A DNA stretch of 10,055 bases from an uncultured bacterium. GTDB lineage: Bacteria > Hydrogenedentota > Hydrogenedentia > Hydrogenedentales > CAILVY01. How positions within the stretch are numbered: position 1 is the stretch's first letter; every line of letters starts with the position of its first letter. The position numbers and the translations under genes were made by a program. A model generated the notes under the pieces. The model did not search any database. It was not told the origin of the DNA and was given only the letters and a program-made list of their open reading frames with translations. The DNA lies in assembly GCA_937951485.1 (NCBI GenBank), contig CALEDJ010000054.1, positions 1 through 10,055 on the forward strand, in the 5' to 3' direction. Shown piece by piece: positions 991 through 9,620 of the stretch.

Positions 991-3282
991 TTACTGTTCG
1001 TTTTTCGGTTTGGCGGTGAGGGCCATGGCGGCGAGTTTGAGTGCGCCGGCCTTGCCGTGCGCGCCGATTTCGAGGGCGGGGCCGACGCAACTGGGGCATC
1101 CTTCCTTGCAGGGGCAATCGCTGAGCAGGGACACGGCCGCACGGAACAGGTGTTCGTGGTGGTGGTACAGTTTATCGCTGAAGCCCACGCCGCCGGGATA
1201 ACTTTCATAAAGGAAAACGGTGGGGAGGCCGGTGGCGGGTGCGCGCACCATGGCCTGGGCGCGGATGTCGGAGGGGTCGCAGAGCACCTGAACGGGAGCG
1301 ACCTGCCGCAGGGTATTGGCCAGCGCGTGCAGCGCCTCGCCCATTTCTTCATCACCACCGGCAAAGGCCGCCTGCGCCTCCTGCGGGAATTCCACCCAAT
1401 AGCCGGTGGTGTGCATGGTCTGTTCAGGCAGATGGATTTCGCCCCAGCCCACGTTTTCGTGGGTGCCGAATTTGATCTTCTTGTATTTGGCGGGCAGCCA
1501 CGTAACGCTGAGTTCGCCGCAGCACCGCATGGCTTCGCCCGCCGCGCTCTCCTGAAACCGGTCCAGCACCTTCAGGTCCACTTTCAACAGGGCGTCGGTG
1601 TAGTAGTCCGTGTCCACAGGCCGCGCATAGGCCTTGCGGTCTTCCAGGTCCAGCCGGTCAATCGTGTACTGCGCGCTCTGGTGGATGTAGATTGCGTTCT
1701 GGTGCACAAGCATCGGCGCGGCGAAATAGTCCACCTCTCCGATCACGCGGCCGTTGTCGGAGGTGTCGAGTATGACCACGTTGCCGGGGGCGGCGGTACG
1801 CAGGCTGATGTCCTCGGCGGGATAGGTCTCGGCGCTCCAGTGCCATTTGTCGCGCACCTTGCGCAGAATGCGGTTTTCCGCCAGATAATCGAGGATTTCC
1901 GCCGTGGATGCGGCATCCAATCCGAACGCTTCGCCTTCGCGGAAGGGCAACTCGAAGGCGGCGCATTTGATGTGGCTCGTGACGATGATCAAATTGTTCG
2001 CGTCAATGACCGCGTTCTCCGGCGTCTGGTCGAAGAAGTATTCGGGGTGGCCGATGATGTACTGGTCGAGCGCGGCGCTCGACGCGACGAGCACGATCAG
2101 CGAAACGTCGTGGCGGCGTCCGGCGCGGCCCGCCTGCTGCCAGGTGCTCGCGATGCTGCCGGCATAGCCGGTCATGATGCAGACATCCAGCGACCCGATG
2201 TCAATGCCCAGTTCCAGCGCGTTGGTGCTGACGACGGCCATCACGCGGCCTTCGCGCAGGCCCCGTTCAATCTCGCGGCGCTCCGTCGGCAGGTAACCCC
2301 CGCGATAGCCGCGCACGAGGTTGTGGTCCTTGCCCATGCGCCGCACCGCTTCCTTGAGGTAGGTCGTGAGAATCTCGACGCGGAGGCGGCTGCGCGCAAA
2401 CACGATGGACTGGATGTTCCGGGAAAGGAACTGCGCCGCGATACGGGTCGCCTCCTTGACCGACGAACGGCGGATGCCCAATTCCGCATTCACCACCGGC
2501 GGATTGTAGAACAGGAAATGCTTTTCACCCGCGGGCGCGCCGTTGTTGTCCACGAGGCGCACCGGCCGTTCGATAATCCGCTCGGCCATTTCGCCGGGGT
2601 TCGCAATGGTGGCGCTGCAACAGATGAAGCACGGATTCGACCCGTAGAACGCGCAAATCCGCCGCAGGCGGCGGATGACATTCGCCAGATGGCTCCCGAA
2701 AACCCCGCGATAGTGATGGATTTCGTCAATCACCACATATTCCAGGTTCTCAAAGAGGCGAATCCAGAGGGTGTGGTGGGGGAGGATACCCGTGTGCAGC
2801 ATGTCGGGATTGGTGACGACGATATGCCCGGCGCTGCGGATGGATTTCCGCGCCGAGGCCGGCGTATCGCCGTCGAAGGTGTATGCGCCGATCTTGACCT
2901 CGAGCCCTTCAATCGTGCCGGTCAGTTCCGCCACCTGGTCCTGGGACAACGCCTTGGTCGGGAAGAGATACAGCGCGCGCGCCTTGGGGTTGTTCATGAT
3001 CGCATCCAGGACCGGCGCGTTGTAGCACAGCGTCTTGCCCGATGCCGTCGGTGTCACCACGCAGACGTCCTCCCGGCGCAGGGCCGCCTCTATGGCGTCC
3101 CGCTGGTGGGTGTAGAGATCATGAATGCCGCGCTGTTTCAGCCCTTCCACAAGACGGGGATTCAAGCCCTCCGGAAACCCCGCAAACCGTGCCGACCGCG
3201 CGGGAATTGTGCGCCATGTCGTCAGATGCGCAGTGAATTTCGGGTCGTGCCGCAGTCGGTCAAGCATCTGGGCGACGTTCAT
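991..3282 (-). CDS. mrfA: DEAD-box helicase with C-terminal DUF1998 zinc-binding domain (MrfA/YprA family)
   Basis: Superfamily 2 helicase of 763 residues, close to the roughly 750 residues of Bacillus MrfA. Known family members are DNA helicases acting in mitomycin C-type lesion repair. Motif I is TPTASGKT (77-84, K83 binds ATP phosphate), motif II DEIH (186-189), motif III SAT (223-225), and motif VI QQAGRAGRR (382-390). The segment HHYRGVFGSHLANV after motif II and NALELGIDIG near 354-363 are typical of the YprA group. The C-terminal DUF1998 (MZB) domain carries four cysteines, C723, C725, C729 and C732 (CPCKEGCPSC), expected to bind zinc. I chose the ATG at 3282 because AAGGA lies 8-9 bases upstream and the family similarity begins there; an ATG at 3456 would add 58 residues translated from a tandem repeat. 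No mrfB-like nuclease is visible nearby. The gene follows the epimerase on the same strand after 234 bases of repeat-bearing spacer. Confidence 0.92.
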   Translation of the reverse strand: MNVAQMLDRLRHDPKFTAHLTTWRTIPARSARFAGFPEGLNPRLVEGLKQRGIHDLYTHQRDAIEAALRREDVCVVTPTASGKTLCYNAPVLDAIMNNPKARALYLFPTKALSQDQVAELTGTIEGLEVKIGAYTFDGDTPASARKSIRSAGHIVVTNPDMLHTGILPHHTLWIRLFENLEYVVIDEIHHYRGVFGSHLANVIRRLRRICAFYGSNPCFICCSATIANPGEMAERIIERPVRLVDNNGAPAGEKHFLFYNPPVVNAELGIRRSSVKEATRIAAQFLSRNIQSIVFARSRLRVEILTTYLKEAVRRMGKDHNLVRGYRGGYLPTERREIERGLREGRVMAVVSTNALELGIDIGSLDVCIMTGYAGSIASTWQQAGRAGRRHDVSLIVLVASSAALDQYIIGHPEYFFDQTPENAVIDANNLIIVTSHIKCAAFELPFREGEAFGLDAASTAEILDYLAENRILRKVRDKWHWSAETYPAEDISLRTAAPGNVVILDTSDNGRVIGEVDYFAAPMLVHQNAIYIHQSAQYTIDRLDLEDRKAYARPVDTDYYTDALLKVDLKVLDRFQESAAGEAMRCCGELSVTWLPAKYKKIKFGTHENVGWGEIHLPEQTMHTTGYWVEFPQEAQAAFAGGDEEMGEALHALANTLRQVAPVQVLCDPSDIRAQAMVRAPATGLPTVFLYESYPGGVGFSDKLYHHHEHLFRAAVSLLSDCPCKEGCPSCVGPALEIGAHGKAGALKLAAMALTAKPKNEQ

Positions 3283-3308
3283 GGGGTGAATTCCTTTTGT
3301 TCGGTCAT
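3279..3308 (-). promoter_or_regulatory. Possible leader mini-ORF overlapping the helicase start
   Basis: A nine-residue frame, MTEQKEFTP, starts at 3308 and its TGA overlaps the helicase ATG as ATGA. The helicase ribosome binding site (AAGGA) lies inside it, so translation of the mini-ORF could couple to the helicase. Its own ribosome binding site is weak (AGG only), and a chance frame is quite possible. A similar arrangement precedes the deoC-like gene. Confidence 0.2.
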
Positions 3309-3362
3309 CGCACAACCTGAATATAACATCAGTGATCGGAGATTGCAAACACCACGAAAAAG

Positions 3363-3425
3363 GTCGGACAACTCGGACAAGTCGGACGAGGCGGACGTTT
3401 TGGACGGGGCGGGCAGGTCGGACGG
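3363..3425. repeat. Seven degenerate 9-bp tandem repeats, consensus GTCGGACRR
   Basis: Seven consecutive 9-mers in exact register: GTCGGACAA, CTCGGACAA, GTCGGACGA, GGCGGACGT, TTTGGACGG, GGCGGGCAG, GTCGGACGG. GGAC or GGGC sits at the same place in every unit. They occupy the spacer between the epimerase stop (3517) and the helicase start (3282). Immediately after them, GCGCA-ATGC-TGCGC (3427-3440) can form a 5-bp hairpin, and the octamer TGCTGCGC recurs about 40 bases later. The repeat is translatable in all frames because of the 9-bp period, which explains spurious open frames here. No gene is supported in this 234-base spacer. Confidence 0.75.
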
Positions 3426-3516
3426 GGCGCAATGCTGCGCTGCCGATGTGCCCCAATCTGACATGTTGAGTGCTGCGCCTTGATCACACACAGAGCAAAG
3501 CCATGAAGTGGATCGC

Positions 3517-4518
3517 TCAACCTGGCAGATAGTGGGGGAGACGTTCTTCAAAGAAGACCTTGGTTTTCTGCAATCCGTCGAGCAGGCCGACAGTTGGTTT
3601 CCAGCCCAGCCGCGCCTTGATCTTTTCGTTGGAAATGGCGACATCGCCAACGTCCATCTTGATCCAGTCGTTCGGCCAGGGGACATGCCGCACCTCACCC
3701 CGGCCCATGACCGCGACCACCGTGCGGGCAAAATCCGCGACAGCGTATTCTTCGTCACCAGAGGCGAAGAAAATCTCGCCATGCGTCTGGTCCTGCATTG
3801 CGACCTGAACAAGCGCCTCCACGCAATCGTCCACAAACAGCACATTGCGGCGCTGTGCGCCCTCGCCATAAATGGTCAGCGGCTTGCCCTGCAGGGCCAG
3901 TCCGATGAAAAAATTCAGCACCCCGGCATCGCTGCTGCTGATCTTGGCGCGCGGTCCGTAGATGTTCGCCAGGCGCACCACGGCGGTGCGCAGCCCATGT
4001 ACCCTGTGGTAGATCAGATGATACTTTTCCGCCGCGCTTTTGTTCGCCGAATAAATGTCCAGCGGAAATTCCGGGTGCTGCTCGTCAATGGGATGGCGCA
4101 GCATCGGCCCGCACTGGGTGCTGGTGCCGATGTAAATCACCTGCGCGGCGGGATTCTCGCGCCGGACCGATTCCAGCAGGTTCATGGACCCCACGCAGTT
4201 GATGGCGATGTCGAGAAACGGGTCCTTTAATGAATAACTATGCGAGGTGTGCCCCGCGCAATGGAAGATGATGTCCTTATCCGCCACGGCCCGGCAGACA
4301 AAGTTGTAGTCTCGGATGTCGTGGTGAATGACCCGGATGCGGCCTTCATATCCCGCGATATTGGCGCGGTTGCCGCCGCCGTGGTCCATCAACGAATCGA
4401 AGACAGTGACCTGCGCATCCATGTCGGCGCATCGGATGGCCAGATTGCTGCCGATAAAGCCCAGCCCGCCCAGCACCAGGACGCGCTTTCCTGCGAACGC
4501 CCCGTCTCGTCTTTCCAT
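3517..4518 (-). CDS. NAD-dependent epimerase/dehydratase (extended SDR, sugar-nucleotide type)
   Basis: A 333-residue extended short-chain dehydrogenase/reductase, the usual length for UDP-glucose 4-epimerase and GDP-sugar epimerase/dehydratase relatives. The N-terminal Rossmann motif is G17-x-x-G20-x-x-G23 (GGLGFIG), with D41 at the end of the second strand expected to bind the NAD ribose. The catalytic set is T134 (in GTSTQ), Y156 and K160 (YSANK). RLANIYGPR and the later [16 protein letters not shown] are typical substrate-domain motifs, and the C-terminus [13 protein letters not shown] matches the family ending. The exact sugar substrate cannot be read from the sequence. The ATG at 4518 has GGAG about 7 bases upstream. 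It starts 33 bases after the deoC-like gene on the same strand, so the two are probably co-transcribed, perhaps in sugar or cell-surface polysaccharide metabolism. Confidence 0.88.
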
Positions 4519-4551: not shown

Positions 4552-5250
4552 CTAAAACCGGACCTTGCGATAAGCGCCGGGGTGCCCGGCGTCCTTGGGC
4601 ATGTCGTCCAGCAGTTGCGGCCCCACGCTTGTGCCGATGCGCGACGCGCCGGATTCAATCATGATTACTGCGTCCATATACGTGCGGATGCCGCCCGCGG
4701 CCTTCACGCCGAGCGCGTCCCCGACCACTTGGCGCATCAGGCCCACATCCTCCGGGGTCGCCCCGCCGTGACCATAACCCGTTGCCGTCATTACGTAGGC
4801 CGCGCCCGCTTTCATACTCATCTTGCAGACGTCCACCTTCTCTTCTTCGGTCAGAAAACTGCATTCCAGAACGACTTTGACCGGAATGCCCTGGACCGCT
4901 TTCACGACGGCGGCGATTTCCTGGTACACAAAGGTGGGATACCCGGATTTCAACGCGCCGATGTTGATCACCATCTCGATTTCGGTGGCGCCACTGCGCA
5001 CGGCGTCCCGCGCCTCTTCTACCTTGATGTGCGCCGTGCTCGCACCCAGCGGAAAGCCCACGCACGCCGACACCCCCACATCGGATCCTGACAGTTGCTT
5101 TGCGCAAAACGATGTCCACGCCGGGTTCACTGTCACCGTGGCGAAGCCGTACGCCTTCGCCTCGGCGCACAATTCCCGGATGTCCTCCTCGGTGGCATAG
5201 GCGCGCACCTGGGTATGATCGATCATCTTCGCAAGTTGCACTTGCGTCAC
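4552..5250 (-). CDS. DeoC-like (deoxyribose-phosphate aldolase family) protein with altered active site
   Basis: A 232-residue TIM-barrel protein clearly of the DeoC/DERA family: IDHT (10-13), VNPAW (41-45), VGFPLGAST (64-72), VINIGALKSG (94-103), TATGYGHGGAT (155-165), GVKAAGGIRT (181-190) and RIGTS (204-208). DERA normally cleaves 2-deoxyribose 5-phosphate to glyceraldehyde 3-phosphate and acetaldehyde through a Schiff base on Lys in the K-T-S/A-T-G motif. Here that position is Met154 (V-M-T-A-T-G), and the Asp of the EVD/EID motif is Glu92; the second Lys (K183, in GVKAAGG) remains. It may therefore be a non-aldolase paralogue, so I give no gene symbol. The GTG at 5250 is chosen because AAGGAG lies 10 bases upstream and homology begins at once; an upstream ATG at 5421 would extend through the promoter of the divergent gene. 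It heads an apparent transcription unit with the epimerase. Confidence 0.88.
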   Translation of the reverse strand: MTQVQLAKMIDHTQVRAYATEEDIRELCAEAKAYGFATVTVNPAWTSFCAKQLSGSDVGVSACVGFPLGASTAHIKVEEARDAVRSGATEIEMVINIGALKSGYPTFVYQEIAAVVKAVQGIPVKVVLECSFLTEEEKVDVCKMSMKAGAAYVMTATGYGHGGATPEDVGLMRQVVGDALGVKAAGGIRTYMDAVIMIESGASRIGTSVGPQLLDDMPKDAGHPGAYRKVRF

Positions 5251-5273
5251 GGCCGGGCAACTCCTTTTTTCAT
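5247..5273 (-). promoter_or_regulatory. Possible leader mini-ORF overlapping the deoC-like start
   Basis: An eight-residue frame, MKKGVARP, starts at the ATG at 5273 with AAAAGGA about 7-8 bases upstream, and its TGA overlaps the GTG of the aldolase-like gene as GTGA. The AAGGAG serving the aldolase-like gene is inside it. The arrangement would allow translational coupling. It may be chance; the peptide has no recognisable role. Confidence 0.25.
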
Positions 5274-8373: not shown

Positions 8374-8402
8374 TTGCAAATCCATGGGATATGAATTATG
8401 CT
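8374..8402 (+). promoter_or_regulatory. Candidate promoter for the first prepilin gene
   Basis: TTGCAA (8374-8379) and TATGCT (8397-8402), each 4 of 6 to the sigma70 boxes, are separated by exactly 17 bases. The resulting leader would be about 195 bases long, ending with AAGGAG at 8591-8596 before the GTG at 8604. Confidence 0.35.
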
Positions 8403-8603
8403 ATTGCCAGGCAGTTTGTATCGTTGACGCGCATGGGCGGTGCCTTCGGCGATCCGGGAAAGTCAGGATTCTTTAATAATCAGCGTAAGGGCGTTGTGTG
8501 TCCACGCGGGGATCATCTGCGCGATGTATGTGGCATCGCAGGTGCCAAGATGATAACAACGCGGGGACAAGGCCATAAAACATCAACGATAAGGAGTCAA
8601 GTC

Positions 8604-9620
8604 GTGAAAAAAGGAACAAAAGGATTTACACTCATCGAATTGCTGGTGGTGATTGCCATCATCGGCATCCTGGCGGCGATCCTGCTGCCGGCGCTGGCGC
8701 GCGCACGCGAAGCGGCGCGGCGATCGAGTTGTCAGAACAACCTCAAGCAATGGGGACTGGTGTACAAGATGTACGCCAATGAATCCAAAGGGGAGAAGTA
8801 TCCCGCGATGCAATTGGAGGTGGCTCAGCGTGAAGATTCGGGCCAATGGGAACTGTATATTGCAGCCGGACCGCGTGTGAAATCCATCTACCCCGAGTAT
8901 CTTACCGACCCGTCCATTATTGTGTGCCCTTCTGATGCGACGGAGACCATCGAGAACCTGCGCGACTTTGACAGCCCCGCGCTGGGCATTCGGAAGGGTG
9001 ATTGGCACATTGGCTATTACCTGGGAGGTGGCAATGGCGTCAATGATATTGACATGAGTTACGCCTATTTCGGCTGGGTGTTTGACAAGATGGGCGACAA
9101 TCCGGCGGACCTGGTGCCGGCCAACGTGCTTGCTCTGGACGTTATCGCTGCTTTGCTCGGGGTGACACTCCCCGCGATTAATGCTCCCGTGCCGGCGCAA
9201 TTGGCCTTGGGCGTTATCAAATTGGCGACCTCAGATCCCGCCATCCTTGGCTGTATTGGAAGCCCCGGCCCGGGCTGCGAAATTGTCGGCAGGGTTGTGG
9301 ACAATGATGTCGGCAATGTTGTTCTGCCGCCGAGTTACGGTAACGGCGGAGGCGATACAATCTATCGTCTGCGTGAAGGCATCGAGCGCTTCCTGATCAC
9401 CGACATCAACAACCCGGCGGCGTCGGCCAAAGCCCAGAGCGAAATCTTCATCATGTTAGACCAGTTGGGCACCGCAGGCACGACAACGCTGTATAACCAT
9501 ATCCCCGGCGGCTGCAACGTGCTGTATCTGGACGGTCATGTGGAATTCATCCGCTATCCTGGCAAGCAGCCGGTGAATCCGGCCCTTGCCAACATCATGG
9601 CGCTGTTTAGCGCGAACTAA
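8604..9620 (+). CDS. Type IV prepilin-like protein, DUF1559 / H-X9-DG type
   Basis: A 338-residue protein starting at GTG 8604, with AAGGAG 7 bases upstream; the in-frame ATG at 8391 would put 71 unrelated residues before the class III signal. The leader KKGTKG is cut by prepilin peptidase between G7 and F8 (G-FTLIE), with Glu at +5 and a hydrophobic helix [17 protein letters not shown] for pilus or pseudopilus assembly. [20 protein letters not shown] (32-51) and [13 protein letters not shown] (99-111) are hallmarks of the DUF1559 group abundant in Planctomycetes, Lentisphaerae and Hydrogenedentes. Near the C-terminus H299 and D310-G311 form the family signature, but with ten rather than nine intervening residues ([13 protein letters not shown]). 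A hydrophobic, Ala/Pro-rich insertion (about 176-215) lies in the middle. It is followed by a strong hairpin and by a second gene with an almost identical N-terminus. Its role is probably in a pilus, secretion pseudopilus or surface layer. Confidence 0.9.

Follow-up and report, generated by a model that had tools for sequence, protein, structure and literature searches.

Deoxyribose-5-phosphate aldolase (DERA), the product of deoC, is the textbook class I aldolase, and its Schiff-base lysine is regarded as irreplaceable. In the Escherichia coli enzyme, Lys167 serves as the nucleophile and its exchange costs function (PMC8403123, PMC6244999), while Lys201 tunes Lys167 (PMC6244999). No description of a lysine-less bacterial DeoC was found in the literature searched. 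Here, we describe such a protein, encoded in a 10,055-nt stretch of DNA from an uncultured bacterium; the whole stretch is referred to as the window. The original prediction for this DNA was that a DeoC-family protein lacking the Schiff-base lysine may be a pseudoenzyme or catalyze a different reaction, perhaps linked to a neighboring sugar-nucleotide epimerase.

Results

The gene occupies positions 4552..5250 on the reverse strand and encodes a 232-aa DeoC-family protein with a DERA-family TIM barrel. Its reading frame opens with GTG (5250-5248), ends with a stop at 4552 and runs through 232 codons with zero internal stops. A ribosome-binding site, AAAAAAGGAG (5261..5270, reverse strand), was read directly 10 nt upstream of the GTG, and a gene of the NAD-dependent sugar-nucleotide epimerase/dehydratase family (3517..4518, reverse strand) follows on the same strand 33 nt past the deoC stop. 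Across its whole length, the protein matches TIGR00126 with 254.5 bits (cut-off 117.3), and it is approximately 50% identical to many solved DERAs. The AlphaFold model (pLDDT 93.4, pTM 0.89) predicts a barrel that superimposes at 0.9-1.6 Å on its nearest structural neighbors, solved DERAs of bacteria and Entamoeba; the match to 3ngj has Z 38.9 and rmsd 0.9 Å. Based on profile match and fold, the window gene is clearly a true DeoC by descent. The Gly-rich phosphate loops are also retained. Elsewhere in the window are a DEAD-box helicase with MrfA zinc-binding and HRQ1 winged-helix domains (991-3456, reverse strand) and a Type II secretion/pilin-like N-methylation protein with DUF1559 (8391-9620, forward strand).

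Residue-by-residue alignment to solved DERAs places the motif yvMTATG of the window protein opposite yvKTSTG, with codon 154 (ATG; 4789..4791, reverse strand) encoding Met at the Schiff-base lysine position (E. coli Lys167). Similarly, eiEmvinig stands opposite evDmvinig, and codon 92 (GAG; 4975..4977, reverse strand) encodes Glu at the position of the catalytic aspartate (E. coli Asp102). The relay motif G-x-K-A-A/S-G-G is present as GVKAAGG, in which Lys183 (codon AAG; 4702..4704, reverse strand) corresponds to E. coli Lys201. Of the residues that mark a functional DERA (EC 4.1.2.4), the Schiff-base lysine and catalytic aspartate are therefore absent and the relay lysine is present. All three residues had been called correctly in the original prediction, numbering included.

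A search for a second canonical deoC, as had been suggested, returned none in the window genome, which is 94% complete; the altered protein is its only DeoC. The remaining PF01791 match is LsrF (436 bits to NF006081), and a compensating second DERA was rejected as an explanation. In the same genome, lsrF (AI-2 phosphate thiolase family) adjoins, as judged by eye, a gene resembling a DhaL-type dihydroxyacetone kinase subunit (contig C35; L001 1396-2289 and 2273-2980).

The phylum was sampled as one order of 68 genomes, and a DeoC census was carried out on 60 of them. Exactly one DeoC match was present in 51/60 genomes and two in 0/60, and part of the sample was without any DeoC. The nearest relatives of the window protein, from genomes G002 (75% identical) and G001 (70%), have the canonical Asp and Lys, indicating that both K154M and D92E date from the branch leading to the window genome and are private to it. 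Each is explicable by one base, the former from Lys AAA/AAG to ATG and the latter from Asp GAC, the codon found in G002, to GAG. At positions 92/154/183, the window reads E/M/K, G005 reads D/Q/K, G053 and G057 read A/Q/K, G038 and G045 read A/K/K, G022 and G031 read S/Q/K, and every remaining aligned row reads D/K/K. On a maximum-likelihood tree built with columns 92 and 154 left out, the Schiff-base lysine was lost four independent times among the 51 DeoC proteins (once to Met and three times to Gln, in six genomes), and the catalytic aspartate was lost three times. In genus g28, Asp was lost earlier (A/K) and Lys afterwards (A/Q). As to whether the substitution is conserved among homologues, a question raised at the outset, loss of the lysine recurs, but Met occurs in the window alone. 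In view of the independent lysine losses in five other genomes and of a further one-base substitution (GAC to GAG) at the catalytic aspartate position, an artifact of sequencing or assembly at codon 154 is highly improbable, even though AAG to ATG is one base and the window genome is the sole member of its genus in the comparison set.

Lys183 was lost in 0/51 DeoC proteins of the phylum. Lys183, Lys125, Lys76 and the phosphate-loop glycines were invariant in a 36-row alignment that included the lysine-less rows. Sequence comparison revealed no new lysine common to the lysine-less proteins, and a shared replacement lysine in the pocket accordingly appears not to be present at this level of comparison.

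For comparison across phyla, a single DNA pattern spanning codons 153-187 was used and rows were counted by hand. In the phylum to which locus L072 belongs (a Planctomycetes record), 392 genomes yielded 137 matches, and in that of locus L033 (Bacillota), 149 genomes yielded 114. The Schiff-base codon specified Lys in 251/251 matches listed from these two phyla, suggesting that lysine loss in the window's phylum is more than chance. There, 4/49 pattern-matching genomes were non-Lys (Fisher P = 0.0006 versus the two other phyla, a value that overstates the case because the genomes are related). A short DNA pattern for VMT(A/S)TG produced many chance matches and was uninformative. Two divergent DeoC-like proteins were also observed, one in a Bacilli MAG (L085 6001-6618) with Glu/His and a broken KTSTG motif, and the other in a Flavobacteriales MAG (L084 5932-6531) with Glu, a retained Schiff-base lysine and no relay lysine.

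Change of both catalytic residues would suit early decay, a scenario in which the lineage no longer depends on DERA, mutations reached the active site before the rest of the protein and the gene is heading for loss. DeoC is missing from part of the phylum, as noted above, and the branch leading to G022/G031 is long (1.43), which is compatible with relaxation. The window protein also has eight private changes at conserved sites, versus three and four in its two nearest relatives, so that partial relaxation of the window gene is possible. However, its frame and start are intact, its branch length (0.24) is ordinary next to those of its relatives (0.18 and 0.25), and its dN/dS (0.09 with G002 and 0.16 with G001) is similar to that between G002 and G001 (0.10), with dS near saturation in these comparisons. 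Moreover, it was the two catalytic residues that were replaced, whereas Lys183 and the phosphate loops were preserved. In the parallel case of G053 and G057, which have neither Asp nor Lys, 46 synonymous and seven non-synonymous changes (dN/dS 0.042) reveal strong purifying selection on such a doubly altered protein. We therefore consider early decay of the window gene unlikely. The earlier statement that the gene is not simply decaying holds directly for G053/G057, and less firmly for the window gene in light of its private changes.

An epimerase/dehydratase gene adjoins a canonical deoC in at least seven relatives (G002, G037, G016, G034, G026, G009 and G040) and is absent around the other lysine-less deoC genes in the stretches read. 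The neighbor is thus conserved in several relatives, all with canonical DeoC, and not at the other lysine-less loci, and it does not explain the substitution. On these grounds, the proposed link to the epimerase lacks support as an account of the altered protein, and the epimerase partnership was rejected as the cause of the substitution. A second neighborhood, consisting of an apbE and gfo/idh/mocA pair, is found near deoC in approximately 14 genomes of the order, several of which also have yceI. This cluster is usually divergent from deoC (L137 4100-9700, L138, L144, L146, L106, L154 and others), and it persists after lysine loss in two lineages, G005 and G022/G031, the latter also with yceI. 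The cluster suggests an association of DeoC with a flavinylation-type gene (apbE). Near the lysine-less deoC of G053/G057 lies a gene for a 1346-aa protein (L139 308-4348; L140 1185-5225) with a hydrazine-synthase-alpha-like middle domain and an FGE-sulfatase domain.

In all 68 genomes, including that of the window, no match above the family cut-off was found for DeoB (phosphopentomutase) or for pyrimidine-nucleoside phosphorylase (PyNP; Y_phosphoryl). G028 has a near-full-length phosphorylase match of 210 bits that falls below the cut-off, and the weak partial matches to DeoB and the phosphorylase are probably related superfamily members. With neither partner recognizable, DeoC in this phylum may not serve ordinary deoxynucleoside breakdown, although divergent enzymes could fill the DeoB and PyNP steps.

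Discussion

We propose, with a probability of roughly 0.6, that the window protein belongs to a recurrent type of DeoC pseudo-aldolase, retained because it binds a ligand or carries out other chemistry. It is a descendant of deoxyribose-5-phosphate aldolase in which the nucleophile was lost (K154M) and the acid/base aspartate altered (D92E). Given established DERA chemistry, the class I Schiff base should not form at its normal position, and class I aldolase activity has probably been lost, although some weak activity could persist through another lysine in an enzyme with Gln or Met at this position. The window's loss is one of the four independent lysine losses in the phylum. Since the lysine was lost at least three other times with the gene kept, the job of the protein probably needs no classic aldolase reaction. 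The gene may be kept for a Schiff-base-independent role, most likely sugar-phosphate binding in a retained pocket made up of the relay Lys183, Gly186-Gly187 and Gly206/Ser208, and the retained function would rest on this phosphate-binding pocket. The role of the product could lie in binding, regulation or structure, or else the product could catalyze a simpler reaction with Lys183. The missing DeoB and pyrimidine-nucleoside phosphorylase would fit a DeoC uncoupled from deoxynucleoside breakdown. The original suggestion of a pseudoenzyme or a different reaction fits these observations, in that both catalytic residues are changed, the frame is intact, the rate is ordinary and losses were repeatedly kept.

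An active enzyme with altered chemistry, acting on a sugar phosphate as an aldolase, isomerase or lyase with Lys183 or Lys125 as nucleophile or base, strikes us as quite improbable. Invariance of Lys183, Lys125 and Lys76 in all of the lysine-less proteins would suit it, and the DERA fold is easily re-purposed, as illustrated by the designed Kemp eliminases and re-engineered variants that the structural comparison recovered; however, the lysine-less proteins share no new lysine, and the role of Lys201 in E. coli is to tune Lys167 (PMC6244999).

The pseudo-aldolase reading can be widened, more tentatively, to the phylum as a whole: its DeoC may have a conserved second, Schiff-base-independent function on Lys183 and the phosphate pocket that permitted at least four lysine losses. 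We regard this as possible but somewhat doubtful. The K154M/D92E pair itself was seen in one genome, with no second genome showing its stable retention.

Curated models label the lysine-less proteins as deoxyribose-phosphate aldolase with high scores, and recurrent, selectively maintained loss of the lysine means that some DERA annotations in the phylum are probably wrong. The natural series D/K, A/K, D/Q, A/Q, S/Q and E/M at positions 92/154 offers a means of probing other DeoC capabilities.

The closest described relatives are bacterial DeoC/DERA proteins (TIGR00126; Geobacillus 8qps, Thermotoga 3r12 and Bacillus halodurans 6d33), to which the window protein is similar over its full length at approximately 50% identity, sharing the TIM barrel (Z ~38, rmsd 0.9-1.6 Å), the relay lysine and the phosphate loops. 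It differs from them by Met in place of the Schiff-base lysine, Glu in place of the catalytic aspartate and the absence of DeoB/PyNP partners. The lysine-less DeoC proteins of G005, G053/G057 and G022/G031 resemble the window protein in family, lost residue, retained Lys183 and intact gene, but they stem from independent losses to Gln and have Asp (G005), Ala (G053/G057) or Ser (G022/G031) at residue 92. LsrF (3-hydroxy-5-phosphonooxypentane-2,4-dione thiolase), the paralogue in the window genome, likewise belongs to PF01791 and uses the aldolase fold for another reaction, but constitutes a separate subfamily. The DeoC-like proteins of Toxoplasma gondii (3qyq and 4eiv) share the DERA fold (Z 28), and one Toxoplasma DERA-like protein is reportedly without aldolase activity; however, they are eukaryotic, approximately 23% identical and far more divergent than the window protein.
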